Assembly: GCF_001457475.1 (NCBI RefSeq) | Contig: NZ_LN831029.1 | Location: forward strand, 4,340,001 to 4,404,000 | Direction of reading: 5' to 3' | Origin: Achromobacter xylosoxidans | GTDB taxonomy: Bacteria; Pseudomonadota; Gammaproteobacteria; Burkholderiales; Burkholderiaceae_B | Length of the DNA stretch: 64,000 nucleotides | Part shown: positions 12,339 to 59,758 of the stretch, one piece after another | Position numbering within the stretch: position 1 is the stretch's first letter | Layout of the letters: each line of letters opens with the position of its first letter | The notes under the pieces: model-generated | Database searches by the model: none | The model's input: only the letters and a program-made list of their open reading frames with translations | Told to the model about the DNA's origin: nothing | Translations under genes and position numbers: made by a program

Positions 12339-13298
12339 TTATTGCAGCTTGATCTGCGCGCGCTCGATCACCGACTTCCAGCGATCGCGTTCGGCGCGGA
12401 TCTGTTCGCCGAACTCGGCCGGCGTATTGCCCAGCGGGAAGGCGCCGGTCTCTTCCATCTTGGCGGCGGTGGCGGGGTCGCGCACCGCCTGGGCGAAGGC
12501 CTGCGCGAGCTTGTCGCGCACGTCCGCCGGCATGCCCGCCGGCCCCACCACGCCGTACCAGGCGGTGACGTCGTAATCCTTGTAGCCCTGCTCGGCGAAG
12601 GTCGGCACGTCCGGCAGGCGCGGGTTGCGCGCGGTCCCGGTGATGGCCAGCGCCCGCAGGTGATTGCTCTTGATGTAGGGCAGCGACGACGGGAAGTTGT
12701 CGAAGATCACCGGCACCACGCCGCCCACCGTGTCGGTCAAGGCCGGCGCCGAGCCGCGGTACGAGATGCTGTTCATCTTGCCCCCGGTGATCTGCAGGAA
12801 CCAGATCATGCCCAGGTCATTGACGCCGCCGGCGCCGGCATTGGCGTAGCCGTCCTTGCCCGGATTGGCGCGCACGTGCGACACGAACTCGGCCAGCGTC
12901 TTCGCCGGGTATTGCGGGTTGACGCTGAGGATGTTGGGGCTGGTCACCAGGTTGCTGATGGGCGTGAAGTCCTTGACCGGGTCGTAGGCCAGCTTGGGGA
13001 ACAGGTGCGGCGCGGTGCCATGGGTGCTGACGGTCGCCAGCCCCACGGTGTAGCCGTCCGGCTTGGCGCGCGCGGTGGCGGCCATGCCGATGGTGCCGGA
13101 GGCGCCGGTGCGGTTCTCGACCACGACCTGCTGCCCCAGTATCTCGCCCGCCTTGGCGGCGGCCAGGCGGCCGACGATATCGGTGGGGCCGCCGGCCGGG
13201 AACGGCACGATCAAGGTGATGGGACGGTCGGGGAATTCGGCGTGCGCCGCGGGCAACAGGGCGGCCAGCGCCAGGGCGGCGCAAGTCTTGCGGATCAT
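12339..13298 (-). CDS. Bug/TctC-family periplasmic substrate-binding protein
   Basis: This 319-residue exported protein has an N-terminal signal peptide (MIRKTCAALALAALLPAAHA) and the Bug family hallmarks: PDRPITLIVPFPAGGPTDIVGR after the mature N-terminus and VVVENRTGASGTIG. Bug proteins bind small carboxylic acids or amino acids and may feed tripartite tricarboxylate transporters. No TctA/TctB genes lie nearby. The gene is 33 bp downstream of the D-aminoacylase gene, suggesting it binds an acyl-amino acid or its product; that ligand is inference. Confidence 0.9.
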   Translation of the reverse strand: MIRKTCAALALAALLPAAHAEFPDRPITLIVPFPAGGPTDIVGRLAAAKAGEILGQQVVVENRTGASGTIGMAATARAKPDGYTVGLATVSTHGTAPHLFPKLAYDPVKDFTPISNLVTSPNILSVNPQYPAKTLAEFVSHVRANPGKDGYANAGAGGVNDLGMIWFLQITGGKMNSISYRGSAPALTDTVGGVVPVIFDNFPSSLPYIKSNHLRALAITGTARNPRLPDVPTFAEQGYKDYDVTAWYGVVGPAGMPADVRDKLAQAFAQAVRDPATAAKMEETGAFPLGNTPAEFGEQIRAERDRWKSVIERAQIKLQ

Positions 13299-47216: not shown

Positions 47217-47957
47217 TCAGGCCCCCTGCCCTTGCCGCGCCCCCATCAGCGAGCGCGACAGGCGGCTGGCCGCGGCGAGGATCGGTTCCTTCAACTCATG
47301 CAGCACGCTTTCGCCCAGGCGCGAAATCGGCCCCGAAATACAGACAGCTCCTTGCAGCGTCCAGTTGATGCCATAGACCGGCGCGGAGATGCTGGAGACC
47401 TCGGGATCGCGCTCCCCCAGCGACACCATGTAGCCGGCGCGGCGCACCGATTCATACGGTTCGCCCGGTTCGCCGGAAAAGGCGAGCAGCACGCGGCCCG
47501 GGCTGCCCAGTTCCAGCGGCAGGGCCGCGCCGACGCGCACGTGGTGCCGGATCGACTTGGGGCCCTCGACCCGCGCCATGCAGATGCGCTGCTTGCCTTC
47601 GCGCACGTAGAACGTCGCGCTTTCGCCGGTTGCCGCCGACAGCTCGCGCAGGATCGGCTGGACCACCTCGACGATGTTGAAGGTGGCCTGGTAACACGCG
47701 CCCAGCCAGCCGGCGGCGCGCGCCAGGCGCCAGGTGCCGTCGGGCCGCTGCGCCAGGTAATCGTCCATGGCCAGCGTGCGCGCCAGCCGCAGCACGGTGG
47801 AGCGATGGCAGCCGGTGCGCCGGCTCAGTTCCGCCAGCGACAGATGGGGGTCCTCCACGCCAAAGGCTTCGAGGATCCGCATCGCGCGGCGCACCGCCAC
47901 TACGCCCTCTTCGCCCGGCGCGTCGGGGGATTCCGGGGTCAGGTCATCGTTCATCAT
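47217..47957 (-). CDS. IclR family transcriptional regulator
   Basis: This roughly 246-residue regulator has an N-terminal winged helix (VRRAMRILEAFGVEDPHLSLAELSRRTGCHRSTVLRLARTL) and the GAF-like IclR effector domain ending with VYGINWTLQGAVCISGPISRL. It is divergent from a nine-gene run of Bug and catabolic genes over about 93 bp, so it very likely controls them. Start codon choice is uncertain: ATG at 47957 is preferred, with alternatives at 47954 and 47966; the palindrome at 47960-47971 then lies just upstream. Confidence 0.87.
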   Translation of the reverse strand: MMNDDLTPESPDAPGEEGVVAVRRAMRILEAFGVEDPHLSLAELSRRTGCHRSTVLRLARTLAMDDYLAQRPDGTWRLARAAGWLGACYQATFNIVEVVQPILRELSAATGESATFYVREGKQRICMARVEGPKSIRHHVRVGAALPLELGSPGRVLLAFSGEPGEPYESVRRAGYMVSLGERDPEVSSISAPVYGINWTLQGAVCISGPISRLGESVLHELKEPILAAASRLSRSLMGARQGQGA

Positions 47958-47959
47958 AT

Positions 47960-47971
47960 GAAACATGTTCC
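47960..47971. promoter_or_regulatory. IclR operator candidate
   Basis: GAAACATGTTCC is a near-perfect palindrome (one mismatched pair) between the IclR gene and the Bug operon; a GGAACA half-site recurs near 47999. It is the best candidate IclR site here. Confidence 0.45.
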
Positions 47972-48050
47972 GCTGTATGAACTCGTATTGTATTAGGTGG
48001 AACATCCCCCGACAATTCCTCCCATCAAAAACAAACATCGGAGACAAAAC

Positions 48051-49019
48051 ATGAAGCCGTTCGCACGCTTGCTATCGGGCCTGGCCCTTGTGTGCATGAG
48101 CAGCCTGGGCGCGGCCCAGGGCTACCCCGACAAACCCATCCGGCTGATCGTGCCGTTCCCGCCCGGGGGCGGCACCGACGTGCTGGCCCGCGAAGCGGCG
48201 ATCAAGGTGGCCGGCAACACCGGCTGGAACATCGTCACCGAAAACCGGCCCGGCTCGGGCGGCAACATCGGCGTGGACGCCGTCGCCAAGTCGGCGCCGG
48301 ACGGGTATTCCCTGGTGCTGGGCCAGACCAGCAACCTGGCGATCAACCCGACGCTGTACGCCAAGCTGCCCTACGACCCCGAGAAGGACCTCACCGCCAT
48401 CGGCCTGGTCGCCGATGCGCCGCTGGTGATCGTGGTGCCGGCCAACTCGCCGCTCAAGACCTTCGAGGACATGATCGCGGCGGCCAAGGCCAAGCCGGGG
48501 ACATTGAACTTCGCCAGCTCCGGCAATGGCACGGTGGCCCACCTGGCGGCGGTGCAGTTGCAGAACGCGGCGGGCATCCAGCTCACGCACATCCCCTACA
48601 AGGGCGCGGCGCAGGCGTCCAACGACCTGATCGGCGGGCAGATCGACATGTATCTGTCTTCCGTGCCGACGCTCATCGGCCACGTGCGCAACGGCAAGAT
48701 GCGGGCGCTGGCGGTGACCTCGGCGCAGCGCGTGCCCGACATGCCCGACGTGCCCACCATCGCCGAGCGCGGCTTCCCCGGCTTCGAGGCCGTGACCTGG
48801 TTCGGCCTGGCCGCGCCGGCCGGCACGCCCAAGGACATCGTGCAGCGCCTGAATGCCGAGTTCAACAAGGCGCTCCAGACGCCGGAGCTGCGCGTCAAGT
48901 ACCAGGAACAGGGCGCGCGCGTGCTCACCGACACCCCGGAAGCGTTCACCAGGCTGATCCACGACGACCGCATCCGCTGGGGCAAGATCGTCAAGGACTC
49001 GGGCGCGAAGGTGGAGTGA
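48051..49019 (+). CDS. Bug/TctC-family substrate-binding protein (operon copy 1)
   Basis: This 322-residue exported protein opens the catabolic run. It has a signal peptide (MKPFARLLSGLALVCMSSLGAAQ), the Bug block YPDKPIRLIVPFPPGGGTDVLAR, VTENRPGSGGNIG and HIPYKGAAQASNDLIGGQIDMYLSS. GGAGA lies six bases before the ATG at 48051. Bug proteins bind a single carboxylate-containing ligand per molecule; which one is unknown. It is divergent from the IclR regulator and eight bases before the amidohydrolase start. Confidence 0.92.
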   Translation: MKPFARLLSGLALVCMSSLGAAQGYPDKPIRLIVPFPPGGGTDVLAREAAIKVAGNTGWNIVTENRPGSGGNIGVDAVAKSAPDGYSLVLGQTSNLAINPTLYAKLPYDPEKDLTAIGLVADAPLVIVVPANSPLKTFEDMIAAAKAKPGTLNFASSGNGTVAHLAAVQLQNAAGIQLTHIPYKGAAQASNDLIGGQIDMYLSSVPTLIGHVRNGKMRALAVTSAQRVPDMPDVPTIAERGFPGFEAVTWFGLAAPAGTPKDIVQRLNAEFNKALQTPELRVKYQEQGARVLTDTPEAFTRLIHDDRIRWGKIVKDSGAKVE

Positions 49020-49026
49020 TCCGGCC

Positions 49027-49893
49027 GTGGCTGCCCTTTACGCCTACTCCAGCGGCGACGCCAGGCCGGCCACCGCCGCCCCGCCCGGGGCGTGCGACTG
49101 CCACCTCCACGCGTATGACGCCCGCTACCCGACGGTGAAGGGCGCAAGGCTGCTGCCGCCGGACGCGTCCATGGCGCAGTACCGCGCGATCCAGGCCCGC
49201 CTTGGCATCCAGCGCGCGGTGCTGGTCACGCCGTCGACCTATGGCGCCGACAACCGCCCCATGCTCGACGCCTTGGCGCAACTGGGCGAGCAGGCGCGCG
49301 GGGTGGCGGTGATCGATGGCAGCGAAAGTGACGCGCAACTGCAAGCCTTGCACGACGCTGGCGTGCGCGGCATCCGGCTCAATCTCTCGCTGGGGGTCAC
49401 TAGCACCATCGACCAGGTGCTGCCGCTGGCGGCGCGGGTCGCCCCGCTGGGCTGGCATGTGCAGTTGCTGATGCCGCCCGAGCGGCTGGCGCAACTGGAT
49501 GGCCTGCTGTCGGCCCTGCCGGCGCCGATCGTGTTCGATCACATGGCCCGCATCAGTCCGGCGCAGGCCGGCGCGCATCCGGCCCATGCCCTGGTGCTGC
49601 GCCTGCTCGGCCAGGGCCGCGCCTGGCTCAAGCTGTCGGGCGGCTACCTCGTCAGCCCGCGCCACAGCGTCGAGGATCCCGCGCTGGACGCGCTGGCCCG
49701 CGGCTATCTCGACGCCAATCCCGAACGCATCGTCTGGGGCAGCGACTGGCCCCACGCCTCGGCGTCGGCCGGCATGCAGCCCATGCCCGACGACGCGCGC
49801 CAGCTCGATCGGCTGGCCGACTGGGCCGGCAGCGCCCGGCTGCGCCAGGTCCTGGTGCACAACCCGGCGACCCTGTACGGCTTTGCGGCATGA
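49027..49893 (+). CDS. Amidohydrolase, 2-pyrone-4,6-dicarboxylate-lactonase-like
   Basis: This 288-residue TIM-barrel amidohydrolase has the metal motif CDCHLHAYD (His26, His28), FDHMAR mid-chain, and IVWGSDWPHAS near the C-terminus with the catalytic aspartate. The layout is that of the LigI/PDC-hydrolase and related lactonase group, which opens cyclic lactones of carboxylic acids. The start is a GTG at 49027. With the SMP-30 lactonase in the same operon it suggests a lactone substrate. Confidence 0.82.
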   Translation: MAALYAYSSGDARPATAAPPGACDCHLHAYDARYPTVKGARLLPPDASMAQYRAIQARLGIQRAVLVTPSTYGADNRPMLDALAQLGEQARGVAVIDGSESDAQLQALHDAGVRGIRLNLSLGVTSTIDQVLPLAARVAPLGWHVQLLMPPERLAQLDGLLSALPAPIVFDHMARISPAQAGAHPAHALVLRLLGQGRAWLKLSGGYLVSPRHSVEDPALDALARGYLDANPERIVWGSDWPHASASAGMQPMPDDARQLDRLADWAGSARLRQVLVHNPATLYGFAA

Positions 49894-49919
49894 ATACCAG
49901 AACAACACGGAGACAACGC

Positions 49920-50915
49920 ATGCAGACCTCTTACTTCCTCTCGCGCCGGCGCTTCCTCGCGCTGGGCGCGGCCGTGGCGGCCGGCGCGGCCTTCGGCGCG
50001 CGCGCCGCGCAGGATTGGCCCGGCGGCAAGGCCATCACCTGGGTGGTGCCCTATCCGGCCGGCGGCAGCACCGACGTGCTGGGCCGCGCCATCGCGCAGC
50101 AACTGGACGCGCTGCTGGCCACGCGCGTGATCGTCGACAACCGTCCCGGCGCCACCGGCACCATTGGCGCAGCCCGCGTGGCGCGCGCCGAGCCGGACGG
50201 CCTGACGCTGCTGGGCACCTCGATCGGACCCCAGGCGATCGCGCCGCACGTGCTCGGCAAGCTGACCTATGACCCGGTGGCGGACTTCGCGCCCGTCATC
50301 ATGATCGGCACCATTCCCCATCTTCTGGTGGTGGGCAGGGAGCAGCCGTTCCACACGGTCGCCGACCTGATCGCGGCCGCGAAAAAGGCGCCCCAGAGCC
50401 TGGCGTATGCCTCGGGCGGCACGGGCACGATCCTGCACATGCAGGGCGAGCTGCTGCAGCAAAAGAGCGGCGCGCGGTTCCTGCACGTGCCCTACAAGGG
50501 CGACACGCCCGCGCTGCAGGACACGCTGGCCGGGCAGGTGCAATTCGCCTTCATTCCCGCGGCGGCCGCGCTGCCGCACGTGCAGACCGGCGCGCTGCGC
50601 GCGCTCGCCGCCACGTCGGCGCGGCGCCTGCCGGCCTTGCCGCAGGTGCCAACCATGGCCGAGGCCGGCTTCAGCGATTTCGTGGTGGAGCAATGGCAGG
50701 CCGTGTTCGCCCCCGCCGCCACGCCCGCGCCCGTCATCGCCCGGCTCAACGCCGGGATCGGACGCGCCTTGCAGAGCCCGGCGCTGACGGCGCTGGCCGA
50801 GCAGCTCGGCATCACGCTGGCCGGCGGCACGCCGCAGGCCCTGGACACCACCCGCAGGGCGGACTTCGACAAATGGGGCAAGGTCATCCGCGACGCCGGC
50901 ATCAAGCCGGCCTGA
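49920..50915 (+). CDS. Bug/TctC-family substrate-binding protein (operon copy 2, Tat signal)
   Basis: This 331-residue Bug protein has a twin-arginine signal: SRRRFLALGAAVAAGAAFGARA. Export folded through Tat is unusual for Bug proteins. The mature domain shows the family blocks ITWVVPYPAGGSTDVLGR, VDNRPGATGTIG and VPYKGDTPALQDTLAGQVQFAF. The ATG at 49920 has GGAGA six bases upstream; an earlier ATG at 49890 overlapping the amidohydrolase stop would add ten residues before the signal. It lies between the amidohydrolase and the aldolase gene. Confidence 0.9.
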   Translation: MQTSYFLSRRRFLALGAAVAAGAAFGARAAQDWPGGKAITWVVPYPAGGSTDVLGRAIAQQLDALLATRVIVDNRPGATGTIGAARVARAEPDGLTLLGTSIGPQAIAPHVLGKLTYDPVADFAPVIMIGTIPHLLVVGREQPFHTVADLIAAAKKAPQSLAYASGGTGTILHMQGELLQQKSGARFLHVPYKGDTPALQDTLAGQVQFAFIPAAAALPHVQTGALRALAATSARRLPALPQVPTMAEAGFSDFVVEQWQAVFAPAATPAPVIARLNAGIGRALQSPALTALAEQLGITLAGGTPQALDTTRRADFDKWGKVIRDAGIKPA

Positions 50916-50952
50916 CCCTGCCCTTCCGACTCTCACCTCCACAGGAACACTC

Positions 50953-51636
50953 ATGGCAAACCAGGACATCATCAAGGACTTCCCGCGCGTCGGCGCCGAC
51001 ATCGTGCGCCGCGCGGCGGCACTGCAACCGGCCATCCTGGCCGACGTGGCCGGCCGCCGCGGCGCGCTCAGCGGCCGCATCCGCCCGCTGCACCCCGGCA
51101 TGAAGCTGGCCGGCACGGCGCTGACGGTGGAAGTGCGCCCCGGTGACAACCTCATGATCCATGCCGCGATTTCGCTGGCCAAGCCGGGCGACGTGCTGGT
51201 GATCGACGGCAAGGGCGACCTCAGCTCGGCGCTGATGGGCACCATCATGATGAACGCCTGCCGCAAGCTGGGCATCGCCGGCGTGGTGATGGATGGCGCG
51301 GCGCGCGATAGCGTGGAGATCATCGAAATGGACTATCCGGTGTTCGCCGCCGGCACCAACCCGAACGGCCCCACCAAGAACGTGCCCGGCCGCATCGGCC
51401 ATCCCGTGTCGGTCGGCGGCGTGACCGTGCATCCCGGCGACTTCGTCATCGGCGACGCCGACGGCGTAGTGGTGGTCGAACGCGAGAAAATCGAAGGCCT
51501 GCTGCCGGCCGCCGAAAAGAAGGTGCGCGACGAGGCCGCGCGCATCGCCGCGATCCAGGCCGGCGACACCGAGGCCAAGTGGCTGACGGCCGCGCTGCGC
51601 GCCGCCGGCGTGCTCAAGGAAGGGGAAGCGCTGTGA
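50953..51636 (+). CDS. RraA/HMG-aldolase family protein
   Basis: This 227-residue protein has the RraA fold and the active-site block VVMDGAARDS with Asp114, Arg118 and Asp119, matching the Arg-Asp pair of 4-hydroxy-4-methyl-2-oxoglutarate/4-carboxy-4-hydroxy-2-oxoadipate aldolases rather than the regulator RraA. It probably cleaves a 4-hydroxy-2-oxo acid, releasing pyruvate. Its stop overlaps the GTG start of the next gene (dehydrogenase), indicating coupling. Confidence 0.82.
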   Translation: MANQDIIKDFPRVGADIVRRAAALQPAILADVAGRRGALSGRIRPLHPGMKLAGTALTVEVRPGDNLMIHAAISLAKPGDVLVIDGKGDLSSALMGTIMMNACRKLGIAGVVMDGAARDSVEIIEMDYPVFAAGTNPNGPTKNVPGRIGHPVSVGGVTVHPGDFVIGDADGVVVVEREKIEGLLPAAEKKVRDEAARIAAIQAGDTEAKWLTAALRAAGVLKEGEAL

Positions 51637-52580
51637 ACAACATCGCCACAGGCAAGGCCGCCATCGTCGTGACCGCGGCCGACCTGGCCCCGGAAGCCGT
51701 CGCGCTGCTGCAGGATTTCAATCTGGTGTTTGCCGGCAAGACGCCCAGCGAAGAGGGCATCGTGTCCTTGTGCCGCGAGCACAACCCGGTTGCCATCATC
51801 GTGCGCTACAGCAAGGTGGGCGCCGCCGCCATGGACGCCGCGCCCGCGCTGCGCGTGATTTCCAAGCACGGCAGCGGCACCGACACCATCGACAAAGCCG
51901 CCGCCGCCCAGCGCGGCATCCAGGTCGTGGCCGCCGTGGGCGTGAACGCCGCCGCCGTGGCCGAGCATGCCCTGGCGCTGCTGCTGGCCTGCGCCAAATC
52001 GGTCGTGGGCCTGGATGGGCGCATGCGCGCCGGACACTGGGACAAGTCGACGCACAAGAGCCTGGAACTGGACGGCAAGACCATCGGCCTGGTGGGCCTG
52101 GGCGCCATCGGCCGGCGCATGGCCGCCATGGCGCACGGCCTGAACATGCGCGTGATCGGCTTCGATCCCTACGCGCGCGATCTGCCCGAGTACATCGCCA
52201 GCGTGCCGCTGGACGCGATCTGGCGCGAGGCCGACGTGGTGTCGCTGCATTGCCCGCTGACCGACGAGAACCGCGGCCTGGTCAATGCGGCGACGCTGGC
52301 GCAGTGCAAGCCTGGCGTGGTCCTGGTCAACACCGCGCGCGGCGGCCTGGTCGACGAAGACGCGTTGCTGCAGGCGGTGCGCTCGGGCCAGGTGCGCGCC
52401 GCCGGCCTGGACAGCTTCGCCGTCGAGCCGATGACGGCCGGCCACCCCTTCCAGCAGGAGCCGCGCATTCTCCTCAGTCCGCACGTCGGCGGAGTGACCA
52501 GCGCCGCCTACGTCAACATGGGCGTGGCCGCCGCGCGCAATGCGCTGGACGTGCTGGCCCGCGCGGCCGCCCCCGCCTGA
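51633..52580 (+). CDS. D-isomer-specific 2-hydroxyacid dehydrogenase
   Basis: This 315-residue enzyme has a complete catalytic set: Arg236 (NTARGG), Glu265 (AVEPM) and His284 (SPHVGG), with the NAD motif GLVGLGAIGRRM (residues 152-163). It interconverts a 2-hydroxy acid and its 2-oxo acid. The GTG start at 51633 overlaps the aldolase stop, so the two are translationally coupled; a reasonable reading is that it oxidises the hydroxy acid that the aldolase then cleaves. The frame is open upstream within the aldolase gene, without similarity. Confidence 0.88.
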   Translation: MNNIATGKAAIVVTAADLAPEAVALLQDFNLVFAGKTPSEEGIVSLCREHNPVAIIVRYSKVGAAAMDAAPALRVISKHGSGTDTIDKAAAAQRGIQVVAAVGVNAAAVAEHALALLLACAKSVVGLDGRMRAGHWDKSTHKSLELDGKTIGLVGLGAIGRRMAAMAHGLNMRVIGFDPYARDLPEYIASVPLDAIWREADVVSLHCPLTDENRGLVNAATLAQCKPGVVLVNTARGGLVDEDALLQAVRSGQVRAAGLDSFAVEPMTAGHPFQQEPRILLSPHVGGVTSAAYVNMGVAAARNALDVLARAAAPA

Positions 52581-52591
52581 GGAGCCGCGCC

Positions 52592-53662
52592 ATGCCGCAA
52601 CGATGGAAGCATGCGCCGCCGGACAGCAACTGGGGCGAATTCGGACCCGACGACCAGCGCGGCCGCATGAATCTGGTGGACCGCGCCAAGGTGCTGCAGG
52701 GCATCGCGGAGGTCCGCGAGGGCCTGACGTTCTGCCTGTCGCTGCCGCTGGACGTGCCGGGCGGCATGGCGCTGAACCCGCGGCGCCTGCCGCCGCAGCG
52801 CTACGCCACGCTGCGCGATGGCAAGAGCGCCGGGGCCCAGGGCTTTTGCTGGTCCTACGCGTCGGAAGACCCGCTGCTCACGGACGTGGTGTGCGACGAC
52901 GTGCTGCTGATGAACACACAGTATTCCACCCAGTGGGACAGCCTGGCGCACATGGGCAGCCGGTTCGATGCCGATGGCGACGGGCAGGCCGAGGCGGTGT
53001 TCTACAACGGCTTTCGGGCCGGCGCCGAAATCCTGGCGGCCGCGGAGGATCCGCAAGCCGTGGCGGACTGGGCCCGCTTTCCCGGCCCCCGCGCCGGGGC
53101 GCTCGGCATCGAGCAACTGGCCGAACATGGCGTGCAGGGCCGCGCCGTGCTGATCGACCTGGAGGCCCATGTCGGCCGCACGCGCACCGCCGTGGGCTAC
53201 GACGCGCTGATGCGCATCCTGGAGGCCGACGGCGTGGCCATCGAGCCGGGCGACATGGTGTGCCTGCACACCGGCTTCGGCGACACGCTGATGTCGATGA
53301 ACCGCCAGCCCGACGTCGCGCGCCTGCACGCCACCGGCAGCGGCCTGGACGGCGACGATGCGCGCCTGCTGCGCTGGATCGTCGACACGCGCCTGGCGTG
53401 CCTGATTGCCGACAACCCCGCCGTCGAGCTGGTGCGGCCGGTAGCCCTGGGGGGCGCGGCCACGCCGCTGCGCCGCCCGCGCCTGCCGCTGCACGAGCAC
53501 TGCCTGTTCAAGAACGGCATCCACCTGGGTGAACTGTGGTGGCTGACGCCGCTGGCGCGCTGGCTGCGCGCCAACGGGCGCCACCGCTTCCTGCTGACCG
53601 CGCCCCCGCTGCGCCTGCCAGGCGCGGCCGGCTCGCCAGCCACGCCCATCGCCACGGTCTGA
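52592..53662 (+). CDS. Cyclase-family metal-dependent hydrolase
   Basis: This 356-residue protein matches the 'cyclase' family (kynurenine-formamidase-like fold): NTQYSTQWDSLAHMGSRFDADGDG holds the first metal-binding His/Asp, GRAVLIDLEAHVG and VCLHTGFGD follow, and LPLHEHCLFKNGIHLGELWWL supplies the C-terminal histidines. These enzymes hydrolyse amides, esters or lactones. The ATG at 52592 follows GAGGAG. It is 11 bp after the dehydrogenase gene, and 70 bp precede the third Bug gene. Confidence 0.83.
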   Translation: MPQRWKHAPPDSNWGEFGPDDQRGRMNLVDRAKVLQGIAEVREGLTFCLSLPLDVPGGMALNPRRLPPQRYATLRDGKSAGAQGFCWSYASEDPLLTDVVCDDVLLMNTQYSTQWDSLAHMGSRFDADGDGQAEAVFYNGFRAGAEILAAAEDPQAVADWARFPGPRAGALGIEQLAEHGVQGRAVLIDLEAHVGRTRTAVGYDALMRILEADGVAIEPGDMVCLHTGFGDTLMSMNRQPDVARLHATGSGLDGDDARLLRWIVDTRLACLIADNPAVELVRPVALGGAATPLRRPRLPLHEHCLFKNGIHLGELWWLTPLARWLRANGRHRFLLTAPPLRLPGAAGSPATPIATV

Positions 53663-53732
53663 AACGCTGAAAACCGCAAACCAGGCGCAGCCGCCGGCAC
53701 AGGCGGCGCGCTTTCCACAAGGAGACGATCTC

Positions 53733-54683
53733 GTGAAACTGTTCCGCCTTTTACCCCTGGCGCTTGCGTTCTGCGCCAGCGTGGCCGCCGCCGACTACCC
53801 CGACCGCGCGCTCAAGCTGGTGGTGCCCTATTCCGCCGGCGGCGCCGCCGATGCCCAGGCCCGCCTGGTGGCCCAGAAACTGGGCGCGCGCCTGGGCCAG
53901 ACCGTCGTGGTCGAGAACAAGCCCGGCGCCAGCGGCACCATCGGCGCGGCCAGCGTGGCGCACGCCGCCGCCGACGGCTACACGCTGCTCTACGACGCCA
54001 CGGCGTTCGCCATCAATCCCTCGCTCTACAAGAAACTCAGCTACGACAGCCGGCGGGATTTCCTGCCGATCTCGCTGATCAGCCTGACGCCCAACCTCCT
54101 GGTGGTGCCGGCGCAGTCGCCCTACCAGCGCATCGAAGACCTCACGACCGCCGCGCGCAAGGGCCACCTGACGTTCGGCACGCCCGGCCAGGGCACCGCC
54201 CAACACATCGCCGCCGCCTGGTACGCGCAGGGCAACAAGCTGGAACTCACCCACGTCCCCTACAAGGGCGGCGCGCCGGCGCTGACCGACCTGATGGGCG
54301 GCCAGATCGACATGATGTTCAGCAACATGGCGGCGTCCTACCCGCTGGTCAAGAGCGGCAAGCTGCGCGCGCTGGCGATCACGTCGCCCGAGCGCATCGC
54401 GGCGCTGCCCGACCTGCCCACCGTCGCGGAGAGCGGCGTGCCGCAGTATTCGGTGTACGAGTGGAATGGCGTGCTGGCGCCGGCCGGCGTGCCGCCCGAG
54501 GTGGCCGCGCGCATCGAGCAGGCGTTGCGCGCCACGCTGCAGGACCCGGCGCTGCGCCACAGCCTGCAGGAACTCGGCGCGCAGCCGGTGGGCTCGACCG
54601 CCGCCGAATTCCGCGCCTTCATCGACGACCAGATGGAACGCTCGGCCCGTATTCTGGCCGAGGCCGGCATCCACAAGGAATGA
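53733..54683 (+). CDS. Bug/TctC-family substrate-binding protein (operon copy 3)
   Basis: This 316-residue exported Bug protein has the signal peptide MKLFRLLPLALAFCASVAAA, then YPDRALKLVVPYSAGGAADAQAR, VVENKPGASGTIG and THVPYKGGAPALTDLMGGQIDMMFSN. AAGGAGA lies seven bases before the GTG start at 53733. It is distinct in sequence from copies 1, 2 and 4, so these are diverged family members rather than recent duplicates. Its ligand is unknown. Confidence 0.92.
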   Translation: MKLFRLLPLALAFCASVAAADYPDRALKLVVPYSAGGAADAQARLVAQKLGARLGQTVVVENKPGASGTIGAASVAHAAADGYTLLYDATAFAINPSLYKKLSYDSRRDFLPISLISLTPNLLVVPAQSPYQRIEDLTTAARKGHLTFGTPGQGTAQHIAAAWYAQGNKLELTHVPYKGGAPALTDLMGGQIDMMFSNMAASYPLVKSGKLRALAITSPERIAALPDLPTVAESGVPQYSVYEWNGVLAPAGVPPEVAARIEQALRATLQDPALRHSLQELGAQPVGSTAAEFRAFIDDQMERSARILAEAGIHKE

Positions 54684-54742
54684 CGCGGCCAGCGAGGGCT
54701 CAAGGCCGAATGACATTCCCGCATAAAAACAGAGGACGACAA

Positions 54743-55741
54743 ATGAATCACCGTAATCGAACCCGCTTCTCGCCCCGGCGCGCCGCGCTGCTCGTCGCGG
54801 CCGCCGCGACACTCCTGGCGGGCGGCGTGGCCCATGCCGCCGACGCCTGGCCCAACCGCCCCGTGCGGATCGTGGTGCCCTACGGCCCGGGCGGCGCGGT
54901 CGACGTGGCCACGCGCAAGGTCGCGCAGATGCTGTCGACGCAGACCGGCCAGAGTTTCGTGGTGGAGAACAAGCCCGGCGCGACCGGCACCATCGGCGTC
55001 AGCCAGGTGGCCCGCGCGCCGGCCGATGGCTACACGCTGGTGGCCAACGACACCACCTATTCGCTGCTGCCGCACATCTTCAAGAAACTGCCTTTCGATC
55101 CGGCGGCGGACCTGCAGCCGGTCACGGCCTTCATCTTCGCGCCCATGGCGCTGGCGGTGGCGGCCGACAGCCCCTATCGCACGCTCGACGACCTGCTGGC
55201 GCGGGCGCGCGCCAAGCCCGACTCGGTGACGTACGGCTCGGGCGGCGCCGGCACCACGCCGCACTTTGCCGCCGAAGGGCTGGCGCGGGCGACGGGCGTG
55301 AAATTCATGCACGTGCCGTTCAAGGGCGCCGCCGAAGCCACGCAGGCGGTGCTGGGCAAGGTGATCGACTTCCAGTTCGCCTCGACCACCGGCCTGATGG
55401 GGCCGGCGCAGGGTGGACAGTTGCGCCTGCTGGCCGTGAGCGGCGCCAAGCGGCTGGCGGTGCTTCCCGACGTGCCGACATTCGCGCAGGCTGGCGTGAA
55501 GGATTTCGGCGTGGTCAACTGGACCGGCCTGTGGGCGCCCAAGGGCACGCCGCCGGAAGTCACAGAACGCCTGCAACGCGAAGTCACCAAGGCCATGGCG
55601 TCGGAGGAAATGCAGACCTTCGCCACCAAGATGGGCGCCGAGCCGCGCGCCGCCGACGCGGCGGAATTCGGCCGCATCCTGGCCGACAGCAACGTGATGT
55701 GGGGCAACGTGGCCCGCAGCATCGGCTACGACGCCAAATAG
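54743..55741 (+). CDS. Bug/TctC-family substrate-binding protein (operon copy 4)
   Basis: This 332-residue exported Bug protein has an N-terminal SPRRAALLVAAAATLLAGGVAHA segment, which may be read as Sec or Tat, followed by WPNRPVRIVVPYGPGGAVDVATRK, VVENKPGATGTIG and VPFKGAAEATQAVLGKVIDFQFA. AGAGGA lies eight bases before the ATG at 54743. It ends 16 bp before the SMP-30 lactonase start, so binding and lactone hydrolysis are likely linked. Confidence 0.9.
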   Translation: MNHRNRTRFSPRRAALLVAAAATLLAGGVAHAADAWPNRPVRIVVPYGPGGAVDVATRKVAQMLSTQTGQSFVVENKPGATGTIGVSQVARAPADGYTLVANDTTYSLLPHIFKKLPFDPAADLQPVTAFIFAPMALAVAADSPYRTLDDLLARARAKPDSVTYGSGGAGTTPHFAAEGLARATGVKFMHVPFKGAAEATQAVLGKVIDFQFASTTGLMGPAQGGQLRLLAVSGAKRLAVLPDVPTFAQAGVKDFGVVNWTGLWAPKGTPPEVTERLQREVTKAMASEEMQTFATKMGAEPRAADAAEFGRILADSNVMWGNVARSIGYDAK

Positions 55742-55757
55742 ACACCGAGGAGACGCC

Positions 55758-56675
55758 ATGTTTTTCCCGCAACCGCCCCAGGTGGCGCAATTGGACGCAT
55801 GGAGCGCCATGCCCGACAACTTCCGCCGCCCCCAGCGCAGCGACTGGGCCGACGCCAACCGCGGCGGCGCGCCGGTCGATTCGTTCCTGGAAGGCCCGGT
55901 GTTCGATCGCCACGGCAACCTGTACGTCACCGACATTCCGTGGGGGCGGGTGTTCCGCATCGGACCCGACGGCCAATGGTCGTTGGTGACAGAATACGAC
56001 GGCGAGCCCAACGGCATGAAGTTCCTGGACGACGGCCGACTGCTGATCACGGACTACAAGAATGGCCTGATGGTCCTGGACGTGGCCAGCGGCCAGGTCG
56101 CGCCCTACCTGGCCCGCCGCAACAGCGAGCGCTTCAAGGGCGTGAACGACCTGATCTTCGATGCGCACGGCAATATCTACTTCACGGACCAGGGCCAGAG
56201 CGGCCTGCACGATCCCAGCGGCCGGCTGTACCGCCTGCGCCCCGACGGCCGGCTGGATTGCCTGCTCGACAACGTGCCCAGCCCCAACGGCGTGGCGCTG
56301 TCGCCGGACGGCAAGGTGCTGTACCTGGCGGTGACGCGCGGCAACTGCGTCTGGCGCGTGCCGCTGATGGCGGACGGCAGCGTCAGCAAGGTGAGCCAGT
56401 TCTTCACCTCGTACGGTCCCAGCGGCCCGGACGGACTGGCGGTGGACCGCGAAGGCAATCTGCTGGTCTGCAATCCGGGCCTGGGCTACGTGTGGCTGCT
56501 GAACCATCGCGCCGAGCCGGTGATCGTCTGGCGCAGCCCCAACGGCATGTCGACCACCAACCTGGCCTTTGGCGGCGAGGACGGCCGCACCCTGTTCTGC
56601 ACCGAGTCGCTGACGGGCACCATCCTCATCGCCCGCGCGCCCCATCCGGGCCTGCTGGCCGCGGCCCCGCGCTGA
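55758..56675 (+). CDS. SMP-30/gluconolactonase-family lactonase
   Basis: This 305-residue six-bladed beta-propeller enzyme has the family blocks EGPVFDRHGNLYVTDIPWGRVFRI (Glu as metal ligand near 45), KGVNDLIFDAHGNIYFTDQG, and PNGVALSPDGKVLYLAVT with Asn and Asp ligands, and GPDGLAVDREGNLLVCNPG. It hydrolyses sugar-acid or related lactones. It is the last gene of the run that starts at 48051. After it, the strand continues with an NlpE-like gene 133 bp away, so the operon probably ends here. Confidence 0.88.
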   Translation: MFFPQPPQVAQLDAWSAMPDNFRRPQRSDWADANRGGAPVDSFLEGPVFDRHGNLYVTDIPWGRVFRIGPDGQWSLVTEYDGEPNGMKFLDDGRLLITDYKNGLMVLDVASGQVAPYLARRNSERFKGVNDLIFDAHGNIYFTDQGQSGLHDPSGRLYRLRPDGRLDCLLDNVPSPNGVALSPDGKVLYLAVTRGNCVWRVPLMADGSVSKVSQFFTSYGPSGPDGLAVDREGNLLVCNPGLGYVWLLNHRAEPVIVWRSPNGMSTTNLAFGGEDGRTLFCTESLTGTILIARAPHPGLLAAAPR

Positions 56676-56808
56676 CGCGCTCCGGCCGACGGGCCCGGCG
56701 GGATCCCACGCATCCACGACGGGCGCGCCGCGCTTGCCTTTACATCCCGTTTCAGCAAGGATGGGCATGCGTCCGTATCGTGGGCGCACCGCAACACAGG
56801 AGCTCGCC

Positions 56809-57234
56809 ATGATGAGAACCACCTTGACCTGCACCCTGACAGTCGCCCTGCTTGCCGGCTGCGCCCCCTCCAAACCGATCAGCGCGCGTTCCGTGCCCGT
56901 GGACAATCACACGGCGCGCGATTCGCTCGACTGGCCGGGCAGCTACGAAGGCACCCTGCCTTGCGCCGATTGCCCCGGCATCCGCACCCGCCTGACCTTG
57001 ATGCAGGACGGCCGCTACGAGCGCGCCACCCAGTACCTGGACCGCGAGCCGCAGCCTGAAACGGTCGCCGGCACCTTCAGCTGGGAATCCGATGGCAGCA
57101 CCATCCGCCTGGACGCCTCGGGCGACAGCCAGCGCTATTTCATCGCCGAGAACCAGGTGATCATGCTGTACCGCGACGGCACCCGGCCCACCGGCCCGCT
57201 GGCGCCGCACTACGTGCTGCGGCGCGCGCAATAG
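56809..57234 (+). CDS. NlpE N-terminal-domain lipoprotein
   Basis: This 141-residue outer-membrane lipoprotein has the lipobox LLAGC (Cys18) and the NlpE N-terminal domain: WPGSYEGTLPCADCPGIRTRLTLMQDGRYE, with the CxxC pair Cys52/Cys55, then GTFSWESDGSTIRLD. In E. coli NlpE signals surface contact and copper stress to Cpx; this protein lacks the C-terminal domain. AGGAG precedes tandem ATGs at 56809 and 56812. Its role here is uncertain. Confidence 0.85.
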   Translation: MMRTTLTCTLTVALLAGCAPSKPISARSVPVDNHTARDSLDWPGSYEGTLPCADCPGIRTRLTLMQDGRYERATQYLDREPQPETVAGTFSWESDGSTIRLDASGDSQRYFIAENQVIMLYRDGTRPTGPLAPHYVLRRAQ

Positions 57235-57275
57235 CGCCGCCGCGCCGGAAAATGCCCCCCAAGGAAGGAAGACCC

Positions 57276-58022
57276 ATGAAGACCGATCACGAACTGCTCG
57301 ACGCGTTTGCCCCGACCGGCGCGCTGCGCGCCTCCATCAACCTGGGCAATCCCATCCTTGCCAACACCCATCCCGACACCGGCGCGCCCGGCGGCGTGTC
57401 GGTCGACCTGGCCACCGAACTGGCGCGCCGGCTCGACGTGAAACTGGAGCTGGTGGTGTTCAAGTCCGCCGGCGAATCGGTCAACGCGGTCGCCGCCGAA
57501 CAGGCTGACGTGGGCTTCTTCGCGATCGATCCGCTGCGGGGCGAACAGATCGCCTTCACCGCGCCCTACGTGGTGATCGAAGGCGCCTACCTGGTGCGCG
57601 ACGATTCCCCCATCACCCGCATGGAAGAAGTGGACCGACCCGGCCAGCGCGTGGTGGTCGGCAAGGGCAGCGCCTATGACCTGTACCTGACGCGCGAGAT
57701 CAAGCACGCCGAACTCTTTCGCGCGCCCACCTCGCCCGCCGTGGTCGACACCTTCGTGAAGGAAAACATGGAAGTGGCGGCCGGCGTCAGGCAACAGTTG
57801 GAGGCCGACGCGCACCGCCTGGGCGGCCTGCGCCTGCTGGACGGCCACTTCATGCTGATCCGCCAGGCCATGGGCGTGCCCAAGAGCCGCGGCGCCAAGG
57901 CGAGCGCGTACCTGGCCGCCTTTGTCGAAGCGATGAAGAAAAGCGGGTTCGTGGCCGAGGCGCTGGCGCGCCACAAGATCCAGGGCGCCGCCGTGGCGCC
58001 ATTGGAAGCGGCGCCGCAATAA
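57276..58022 (+). CDS. Solute-binding-protein-fold protein without signal peptide
   Basis: This 248-residue protein has the SBP_bac_3 fold typical of amino-acid ABC binding proteins: GALRASINLGNPILANTHPDTGAPGGVSVDLATELARRLDVKLELVVF, then ADVGFFAIDPLRGEQIAFTAPYVVIEGAYLVRD and VGKGSAYDLYLTREI. There is no signal sequence; the chain starts MKTDHELLDAF, directly at the domain. It would therefore stay in the cytoplasm and probably acts as an enzyme or sensor rather than a transport protein. GGAAG precedes the ATG at 57276. No transporter genes are adjacent. Confidence 0.8.
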   Translation: MKTDHELLDAFAPTGALRASINLGNPILANTHPDTGAPGGVSVDLATELARRLDVKLELVVFKSAGESVNAVAAEQADVGFFAIDPLRGEQIAFTAPYVVIEGAYLVRDDSPITRMEEVDRPGQRVVVGKGSAYDLYLTREIKHAELFRAPTSPAVVDTFVKENMEVAAGVRQQLEADAHRLGGLRLLDGHFMLIRQAMGVPKSRGAKASAYLAAFVEAMKKSGFVAEALARHKIQGAAVAPLEAAPQ

Positions 58023-58121
58023 AAGGCAGCGTAGCCGCCACCCCGCTCGATTGCTCGCCGCGAGCCTTGCACGCGGTGGCATCACGCGCCTTGCCGGCCG
58101 CGCCGCCGCCTGCTGTGAACC

Positions 58122-58156
58122 GTCGCTGGCGGCCCGCAGCGCGGGCCGCCAGCGAC
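58122..58156. terminator. Perfect 16 bp hairpin between convergent genes
   Basis: GTCGCTGGCGGCCCGC and its exact complement flank a three-base loop (AGC). No T tract follows on either strand, so it may act as a transcription stop or an RNA stabiliser between the convergent SBP-like and fmdB genes. Confidence 0.5.
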
Positions 58157-58173
58157 AGGGATCGCAACCGCCG

Positions 58174-58506
58174 TCAGTGGCTGATCATCCAGGGCCGCGA
58201 ACCGGCGAAGGACTTGGCGCCGTCGGGCGTGGCGCGGGTCTTGCCGGACCGGCGGGCGCCCGAACAGCAACCGCAGTTCATGCCGTGGCCCGAACGCGAG
58301 CTGCGCGGTTCGTTGGCGCTGCGTTCGTTGGCGGCATGGGCACGGTTGACGGCCGACGACAGCGCCGAGATCGCGGGCGCGCCGCCGACGATGCGGTTCG
58401 AGGCCGCGCCGCATCGCGGACAGTCGGCCGGGTCGCGCCACTGCGCCAGCGGCCGCAGCGCCGTGAATTCGCCGCAATCGGCGCAGGCGTAGTCATACAT
58501 GGGCAT
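58174..58506 (-). CDS. fmdB: FmdB-type zinc-ribbon protein
   Basis: This 110-residue protein starts with the FmdB zinc ribbon MPMYDYACADCG: Cys8 and Cys11 pair with Cys29 and Cys32 (CPRC) to bind zinc. FmdB-type proteins are regulatory or assembly partners of formamidase, encoded next door 22 bp upstream. The C-terminal half (residues 60-110) is Arg/Ser-rich and low-complexity. GGAGA lies five bases before the ATG at 58506. Confidence 0.85.
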   Translation of the reverse strand: MPMYDYACADCGEFTALRPLAQWRDPADCPRCGAASNRIVGGAPAISALSSAVNRAHAANERSANEPRSSRSGHGMNCGCCSGARRSGKTRATPDGAKSFAGSRPWMISH

Positions 58507-58528
58507 GTCGGTCTCCTGCGCGCAAGGC

Positions 58529-59758
58529 CTAGCGGTCGCGCGACAAGGGCATGTCGATGCCGCCCTTGATGTGCTTGACCGGACCGGAGGCCGACGGCTG
58601 GATGTCGAAATCGAAGATCTCGGTCGGCAGCCACAGCGTGGCGCAGGAGTTGGGAATGTCCACCACCCCGCTGATGTGCCCCTGCACCGGCGCCGTACCC
58701 AGTATCGAGTACGCCTGCGCGCCCGAATAGCCGAACTTCTTCAGGTATTCGATGGCGTTCAGGCAGGCCTGGCGATAGGCCACGTTCACGTCCAGGTAGT
58801 GCTGCTTGCCGCCCTCGTCCACCGAGATGCCTTCGAAGATCAGGAAGTCCTTGTAGGCCGGCGTGATCGGGCTGGGCTTGAAGATCGGGTTGAGGATGGC
58901 GTACTTGTCCATGCCGCCCTTGATCAACGTGACGCGCATGTGCACCCAGCCGGCCATTTCGATGGCGCCGCAGAAGGTGATCTCGCCGTCGCCCTGCGAG
59001 AAGTGCAGGTCGCCCACCGACAGGCCGCCGCCCTTGACGTAGACCGGAAAGAACACCCGCGCGCCGCGCGACAGGTCCTTGATGTCGCAGTTGCCGCCAT
59101 GCTCGCGCGGCGGCACGGTGCGCGCGCCCTCGGCCGCCGCGCGGTCGCGGTCGGCCCCTTGCAGCGCGCCCATGTGCGCCGTCTTGGGCGCGGGCGGATT
59201 GGCCAGCGGCGGCACGCGGTTCGGGTTGGTGTCGATCAGCGCCTGCTCGCGCTGGTTCCAGGTGTCCAGCAGCTTCTTGTCGGGCAGGCAGCCGATCAGG
59301 CCGGGATGGATCAGGCCGGCGAAGCTGACGCCCGGGATGTGGCGCGACGAGGTGAACATGCCATGGAAATCCCAGATGGATTTCTGCGCATGGGGGAAAT
59401 GGTCAGTAAGGAAGCCGCCGCCATTGTTGCGGCTGAAGAAGCCGTTGAAGCCCCACAGGCTGTCGGGCTTGGCGCCGATGTCCAGCAGGTCCACCACCAG
59501 CAGGTCGCCGGGCTCGGCGCCTTCGACGCCGACGGGGCCGGACAGGAAGTGCACGGTGGAAAGGTCGACGTCGCGCACGTCATCGGCGCTGTCGTCGTTC
59601 TTGATGGCGCCGCCGGTCCAGTCGTAGGTCTCCAGGATGAAATCGTCGCCGGGCTTGACCCAGACGGCCATCGGGATATCCGGATGCCAGCGGTTGTGGA
59701 TCTGCTTGTTTTCGTAGGGGGACTGGGCCAGGTCGACCTGGATGAGGGTATCGGTCAT
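58529..59758 (-). CDS. fmdA: Formamidase
   Basis: This 409-residue enzyme hydrolyses formamide to formate and ammonia. It is of the FmdA/AmdA type, with blocks VDLAQSPYENKQIHNRWHPDIP, FHGMFTSSRHIPGVSFAGLIHPGLIGC, and a C-terminal DFDIQPSASG. Visible cysteines in LIGCLPDK and EHGGNCDIKDL are candidates for the active site. It is the first gene of a two-gene unit with fmdB. The 198 bp upstream toward the methyltransferase gene hold a GGAGA ribosome site but no promoter I can define. Confidence 0.92.
   Translation of the reverse strand: MTDTLIQVDLAQSPYENKQIHNRWHPDIPMAVWVKPGDDFILETYDWTGGAIKNDDSADDVRDVDLSTVHFLSGPVGVEGAEPGDLLVVDLLDIGAKPDSLWGFNGFFSRNNGGGFLTDHFPHAQKSIWDFHGMFTSSRHIPGVSFAGLIHPGLIGCLPDKKLLDTWNQREQALIDTNPNRVPPLANPPAPKTAHMGALQGADRDRAAAEGARTVPPREHGGNCDIKDLSRGARVFFPVYVKGGGLSVGDLHFSQGDGEITFCGAIEMAGWVHMRVTLIKGGMDKYAILNPIFKPSPITPAYKDFLIFEGISVDEGGKQHYLDVNVAYRQACLNAIEYLKKFGYSGAQAYSILGTAPVQGHISGVVDIPNSCATLWLPTEIFDFDIQPSASGPVKHIKGGIDMPLSRDR

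Follow-up and report, generated by a model that had tools for sequence, protein, structure and literature searches.

How would a bacterium feed a catabolic gene run that encodes several binding proteins but no import pump? The question is raised by positions 47217 to 56675 of the window analysed here, i.e. a 64,000-nucleotide stretch of the Achromobacter xylosoxidans genome (bases 4,340,001-4,404,000 of one 6.81 Mb contig), in which genes for four Bug binding proteins of the TctC family (Bug1 to Bug4) alternate with genes for an amidohydrolase (AH), an RraA-like protein, a D-2-hydroxyacid dehydrogenase (DH), a cyclase-family protein (Cyc) and an SMP-30 protein, and an iclR-type regulator gene is transcribed divergently. 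Together with iclR, these nine genes form a single conserved cluster, made up of the following elements.

47217..47957, minus strand: iclR-type regulator gene (PF01614 and PF09339; no NCBIfam model reached its cut-off)
47960..48016, both strands: shared divergent promoter/operator (palindrome and promoter sites; IclR binding predicted)
48051..49019, plus strand: Bug1, TctC family (PF03401; tree clade of 54 rows, support 0.91)
49027..49893, plus strand: amidohydrolase AH, LigI-like, predicted lactone hydrolase (PF04909; nearest structure LigI, E 6e-40)
49920..50915 (alternative start 49890), plus strand: Bug2, TctC family, cassette partner of AH by co-occurrence (PF03401; clade of 22 rows, support 1.0)
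50953..51636, plus strand: RraA-like protein, predicted class II pyruvate aldolase (PF03737; NF004850 at 235.1 bits against a cut-off of 231; nearest structure HMG/CHA aldolase 3noj)
51633..52580, plus strand: D-2-hydroxyacid dehydrogenase DH (PF02826 and PF00389; R236, E265 and H284 conserved)
52592..53662, plus strand: cyclase-family protein Cyc, predicted metal-dependent lactone/ester hydrolase (PF04199; sole structure match 5ibz, E 8e-32; QYSTQWDSLAH motif)
53733..54683, plus strand: Bug3, TctC family (PF03401; clade of 51 rows, support 0.64)
54743..55741, plus strand: Bug4, TctC family (PF03401; clade of 38 rows, support 0.86)
55758..56675, plus strand: SMP-30/SGL protein, predicted lactonase (PF08450; structure matches Drp35, a beta-propeller lactonase and a gluconolactonase)

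The evidence for a unit comes from gene order, the conservation of which the first-pass annotation of the sequence had suggested checking. A scan starting from Cyc gave 80 loci, with DH beside Cyc in 54 and not in 26; the closest Cyc relatives, at 99% identity, are those of Achromobacter dolens and A. ruhlandii. The order Bug1-RraA-DH-Cyc is kept in 52 loci, mostly from Burkholderiales, i.e. 48 of the 80 together with three further loci and the window, presence of these four genes being required for inclusion. Left out were L035 (same genome region as L058), four loci with no Bug1 in reach (L059, L063, L075 and L083, of which L063 has Bug2 and L075 both AH and Bug2) and four loci without RraA and/or DH (L060, L068, L070 and L088). 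SMP-30 is present in 42 of the 52 loci and some AH in 26, with downstream AH forms also seen in some of them, and the simplest clusters (Bug1-RraA-DH-Cyc-Bug3) are those of Cupriavidus and Ralstonia.

In a FastTree phylogeny of 230 Bug proteins with midpoint root, the window's four Bugs, which share 37-43% pairwise identity, belong to four separate clades (sizes and supports given above), and most clade members occupy the corresponding position in their run. One further lineage, Bug5 (40 rows, support 0.78), is found in many relatives and is absent from the window's run. Counting Bugs over uninterrupted, same-strand runs with gaps below 700 bases, we found two in 13 loci, three in 11, four in 23 and five in 5, and Bug3, Bug4 and Bug5 are each missing singly in various loci. 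Eleven positions are fixed within the four clades of the window's Bugs and differ between them (residue numbers count from a start lying 18 residues before the ATG). By eye, some of these fall within the PGG and YKG loops, a placement that would be compatible with different ligands. Two Achromobacter loci carry, on the iclR side of the cluster, a second RraA, Bug and AH set at 34-46% identity (L054:1172-4600 and L055:39-4500, the latter also with a dehydrogenase).

In the shared promoter region between iclR and Bug1, a palindrome, GAAACATGTTCC, lies at 47960-47971, followed by the Bug1 promoter with its -35 box TTGTAT (47988-47993), a 17-base spacer containing GGAACA and the -10 box GACAAT (48011-48016). 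In a promoter scan, the opposite strand of the same bases gave a promoter-like site for iclR (TTGTCG, 17 bases, TACAAT), so that the two sites overlap fully (47987-48016), each -35 box lying on the other's -10 box. The pattern TTGTAN-17-NANANT stands 5' of Bug1 in 37 of the 38 loci with iclR and in 1 of the 14 loci without iclR in reach (L081, the contig of which starts near Bug1), compared with an average of 0.065 loci in shuffles. Within the spacer, GVAAC occurs in 32 of the 37, and many loci carry a GAAACATGTTYC-like palindrome farther upstream. The conserved promoter, the palindrome and the overlapping sites agree with a putative IclR operator within the divergent promoter region, and the run is likely a single operon under IclR control. 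The regulator is not of the PcaR/PobR type (TIGR02431 at 104.3 bits, cut-off 284.75). In L067 a LysR-type gene takes the iclR position, and eight more loci show similar opposite-strand frames there.

Between Bug1 and RraA, 33 of the 52 loci have neither AH nor Bug2, 18 have both, one has Bug2 alone (L097, a Limnohabitans metagenome-assembled genome, MAG) and none has AH alone. In a phylogeny of the concatenated core proteins, AH and Bug2 change seven times each, and the six independent pairs on supported branches are concordant (sign test, median p 0.031, range 0.031-0.0625). Bordetella ansorpii (L058) has the cassette, and in its sister in this phylogeny, Bordetella genomosp. 13 (L057), RraA comes right after Bug1. 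The tree counts do not separate gain from loss. The distances of AH and Bug2 track those of Bug1, RraA, DH and Cyc (r 0.81-0.95), which is easier to reconcile with several losses of both genes together than with several acquisitions. The AH-Bug2 cassette thus seems to be of old origin, with its two genes lost jointly on several occasions, and a mobile cassette is disfavoured by the same distances.

How much of this could follow from the mere number of Bug genes? A profile search of the genome gave 107 TctC matches over the cut-off, two of which belong to the same disrupted gene, hence about 106 genes, against six TctA matches. The set of 106 used for the random placements and the proximity test below excludes one of the two pieces of a disrupted gene as well as a TctC match under the cut-off. 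A Bug gene at 114701-115520 of the genome is in two pieces, with an internal TGA, and is probably a pseudogene, and another lone Bug gene of the window lies at 12357-13172 on the minus strand (genome match 4352357-4353172). Four Bugs within 8 kb is the maximum in the genome, and when 106 genes were placed at random 5000 times, four or more came together in 127 cases as well, which makes the clustering weak evidence by itself. Conserved gene order, not Bug clustering, is the strong evidence for the run as a unit. The four enzyme families have 19 genes elsewhere in the genome, and eight of these are found no more than 1.5 kb from a Bug gene, where random positions would give 6.8% (p 1.8e-5); at 2.5 kb the count is again 8/19 against 9.4% expected (p 1.7e-4). 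This test treats genes as independent and excludes one PF04909 match under the cut-off. The two other AH relatives found in the genome each have a Bug gene within 200 bases.

These numbers bear on the alternative that the extra Bugs are passengers of a general Bug expansion, with no ligand of their own, and that AH and Bug2 are lost together through adjacency alone. The roughly 106 Bug genes, the 127 random placements and the contiguity of AH and Bug2 are all compatible with it. Against this, the four old lineages hold fixed positions, and the upstream AH never occurs without Bug2 in the 52 loci, yet other Bugs are missing singly. We consider mere passengers unlikely.

If, as we prefer, the Bugs serve uptake, the run with its enzymes and Bugs but no import pump likely passes its cargo to a pump encoded elsewhere. 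The window has no TctA match, as the first-pass annotation had said of the run, and the genome's closest TctA gene lies some 285 kb off, so no complete TctABC operon is present. A TctAB pair just outside the run, which would have spoken against the proposed arrangement, was looked for both here and in relatives: TctA is absent near the cluster in this genome and in 60 of 61 cluster-region sequences, the sole exception being L088, a short MAG contig where, at one end (L088:3027-4698), a Bug gene and the 3' portion of a TctA gene face the cluster. The absence of TctAB had also been called unusual, a view that did not hold up given about 106 TctC and six TctA genes, and Bugs lacking TctAB are the rule in PMC5812351 and PMC5994714 as well (the papers cited here are drawn on through excerpts of their text). 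Orphan Bugs are indeed already known (PMC5812351, PMC5994714, PMC11452294, PMC4996985).

Bug-less permease genes are at hand. For four of the genome's six TctA genes, which could serve these Bugs, the closest TctC over the cut-off is more than 47 kb away. One of the four belongs to a locus near 820 kb (L131:337-5871) that lacks TctC and encodes, besides TctB and TctA, a response regulator, a kinase and a D-2-hydroxyacid dehydrogenase; the TctA-dehydrogenase neighbourhood recurs in two other genomes (L147 and L149). About 5 kb off, a second TctA gene (L131:10388-11893, minus strand) has a TctB-like frame and likewise no TctC. Sampling 16 TctA loci from seven cluster-bearing genomes, we saw by eye no Bug within about 1 kb of TctBA in 12, a reading that could miss a very diverged TctC, and a nearby Bug in four (L146, L150, L157 and L158). 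TctA is present in 52 of 53 cluster-bearing genomes (50 loci and three genomes, six loci being left out). Of the two explanations offered by the first-pass annotation, a shared transporter elsewhere is thus plausible through the TctBA pairs without TctC, and sensing fared less well, as set out below.

Delivery by the Bugs to another permease family elsewhere in the genome, i.e. tripartite ATP-independent periplasmic (TRAP), ATP-binding cassette (ABC) or major facilitator superfamily (MFS) transporters, would have a precedent in Rhodoplanes, where some genes for solute-binding proteins (SBPs) of tripartite tricarboxylate transporters (TTTs) stand beside TRAP or ABC genes (PMC5994714). We find it improbable, given the TctBA pairs without TctC in this genome and its relatives, a comparison in which TRAP, ABC and MFS genes were not searched for. 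Still less probable is a role as periplasmic sensors of pathway substrates instead of uptake. A sensing role is described for one Bug, BctC with BctE in Bordetella (PMC5812351, PMC4996985); however, the adjacent two-component genes of that system are missing here, all ten genes of the run being assigned and none encoding a kinase or chemoreceptor, and the regulators adjoining the run are of the IclR type, or LysR type in L067.

What, then, would be metabolized? The first-pass annotation had proposed the opening of a lactone or amide, oxidation of a 2-hydroxy acid and cleavage to pyruvate, and this fits the families and conserved residues, with Cyc narrowed to lactone/ester opening. Cyc is the most informative enzyme for the chemistry of the run and a predicted lactone/ester hydrolase. 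The canonical PF04199 motif is HxG[T/A]HxDxPxH (PMC6117287), which Cyc, unlike the canonical cyclase/isatin hydrolase family, replaces by QYSTQWDSLAH. The latter follows the QxxxQxDxxxH pattern, and the same Gln-Gln-Asp-His change is described for the metal-dependent esterase MGS0169 (PDB 5IBZ) and the trans-dienelactone hydrolase of Pseudomonas reinekei (PMC5341072), from which the activity is predicted. In all 129 aligned loci (some of them duplicates) the two Gln, the Asp and the final His are conserved, one locus having Ser for Thr; of three other cyclase genes taken from the genome, two carry the His version of the motif and one gave no match. An AlphaFold model of Cyc was set aside for its mean predicted local distance difference test score of 55. 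It is very doubtful that Cyc and AH open cyclic amides of the isatin or formylkynurenine kind in a pathway for nitrogen-containing compounds, since, even though isatin hydrolase and KynB belong to PF04199 (PMC6117287), His-x-Gly-Thr-His is replaced by Gln-x-Ser-Thr-Gln throughout the aligned loci, with the Ser exception just given.

Among solved structures, AH is closest to LigI and keeps H26, H28, H172 and D240. LigI R130 and R217, which we take to bind the substrate carboxylate, align with Gly and Leu in AH, and AH is therefore likely to act on a lactone other than 2-pyrone-4,6-dicarboxylate, the substrate of LigI. Judged by family and motif matches, AH, Cyc and the SMP-30 protein, the structure matches of which are Drp35, a beta-propeller lactonase and a gluconolactonase, come from three unrelated families, each a predicted lactone/ester opener. 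DH keeps R236, E265 and H284, presumably the dehydrogenase triad. In RraA, R118-D119 align with R123-D124 of 3NOJ and are conserved in 59 aligned sequences. These match the catalytic Arg and metal-binding Asp of HMG/CHA aldolase (PMC5065237), as in class II pyruvate aldolases of this type, and aldolase activity is predicted. With 130.4 bits against a cut-off of 304.5, RraA stays below the LigK/CHA aldolase equivalog TIGR02798, and protocatechuate 4,5-cleavage was rejected as the identity of the pathway on this ground.

Taken together, we propose a conserved IclR-controlled operon in which AH, Cyc and SMP-30, as three lactone/ester openers, would open the ring, DH would oxidize the released 2-hydroxy acid at carbon 2, and RraA would cleave the product to pyruvate and a second product. 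Each of the four Bug lineages would capture a different carboxylate, Bug2 serving the substrate of AH, and all would dock on a remote TctAB. We hold this model to be evenly balanced, because conservation and the cassette are observed directly and we infer uptake, ligands and chemistry. It is tempting to speculate further on a plug-in operon, where the trunk enzymes are fixed, as is a remote TctBA hub without Bugs (with the TctB-TctA-D-2-hydroxyacid dehydrogenase locus near 820 kb as the candidate), and Bugs, in one case with their own ring-opening enzyme, come and go and set which lactone acids can be eaten; this extension is possible, and we offer it tentatively.

Several points weigh against the proposed model. 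The loci were retrieved via Cyc, and Bug1, RraA and DH were entry conditions for the 52. The Bug clades also include some Bugs from outside the run, and support for the Bug3 clade is just 0.64. Since AH adjoins Bug2, a single deletion can take both. On the uptake side, one cluster-bearing genome, a MAG, has no TctA, and the 52/53 presence weighs little because TctA is widespread. The operator core stands at no TctAB gene of the genome, where its 22 bases occur only here and, with three mismatches, at one site that by eye falls in a LysR-like frame. Co-regulation of a permease was rejected in that the full core, as distinct from partial operators, was found nowhere else. Moreover, TRAP receptors are described as specific, not promiscuous, for their membrane parts (PMC5812351), and the Rhodoplanes orphan SBPs that adjoin ABC or TRAP genes (PMC5994714) point away from a shared TctAB.

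Regarding the gene map itself, the first-pass annotation had correctly read four Bugs, AH, RraA, DH, Cyc and SMP-30 on the plus strand (48051-56675) and iclR divergent from them, and profile matches agree; all four Bugs match PF03401 at 219.6-261 bits (cut-off 27; E 8e-65 to 2e-77). Its statement that several starts overlap the preceding stop clearly applies to RraA/DH alone, where the GTG at 51633 lies at the RraA stop. The Bug2 start at 49890 overlaps the AH stop; the ATG at 49920, preceded directly by GGAGACAAC, looks better, which leaves overlapping starts sure in one place only, and the remaining intergenic gaps are 7-70 bases. Near the Bug2 N-terminus (49920-50000), a twin-arginine-like SRRRFL is shared by close Achromobacter relatives and, by eye, not clearly by Comamonadaceae. 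Downstream of the run (56734-59758) follow an NlpE-like frame, a family 3 solute-binding protein gene and an acetamidase/formamidase gene on the minus strand.

The roles and permease partners of many orphan Bugs have been an open question since the Bordetella surveys. Here, one operon at 52 loci with two to five Bugs, one of them tied to one enzyme, provides a natural experiment, and it yields testable Bug-enzyme pairs as well as a short list of permeases, i.e. six TctA matches, four of them without a nearby TctC. Judged by titles, abstracts and excerpts, the open-licence literature searched has no description of this modular multi-Bug operon. The run is an unusual, well-conserved arrangement of ordinary parts, not a new kind of transporter; what is new is the modular make-up of the operon, in which orphan receptors are swappable and one of them is tied to its enzyme.

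Among known systems, TphC with TpiBA, for terephthalate uptake in Comamonas, is similar in that a Bug gene sits in the catabolic operon and its TctAB-type partners in a separate one (PMC8556258, PMC5812351), but that system has one Bug and an aromatic dioxygenase pathway, in contrast to two to five Bugs and lactone/2-hydroxy-acid-type enzymes here. The Bordetella orphan Bugs and Bug27/Bug69 belong to the same family and have no membrane partner nearby (PMC11452294, PMC5812351); in the excerpted accounts, the Bordetella proteins are mostly assigned to nicotinamide adenine dinucleotide (NAD) precursors or unassigned, whereas here several Bugs share one conserved enzyme operon. The TTT SBP arrays of Rhodoplanes, with up to nine genes, likewise place several diverged Bugs side by side (PMC5994714), but are presented there as a lineage-specific expansion, while in our run Bugs alternate with enzymes and old lineages are kept across genera. 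Betaproteobacterial AMDase gene clusters also show enzyme genes beside TctC without TctAB, with other enzymes and, in the excerpted parts of that paper, no multi-Bug modular operon (PMC4996985). The lower pathway of protocatechuate 4,5-cleavage shares the combination of a LigI-like amidohydrolase and a LigK-like aldolase, whereas the run has an aldolase below the LigK cut-off, no hydratase gene and the additional Cyc, SMP-30 and DH. Finally, MGS0169 (5IBZ) and the P. reinekei trans-dienelactone hydrolase share with Cyc the Gln-x-x-x-Gln-x-Asp-x-x-x-His motif (PMC5341072), the difference being that the activity of Cyc is predicted, from a sequence compared only through its 5ibz match.

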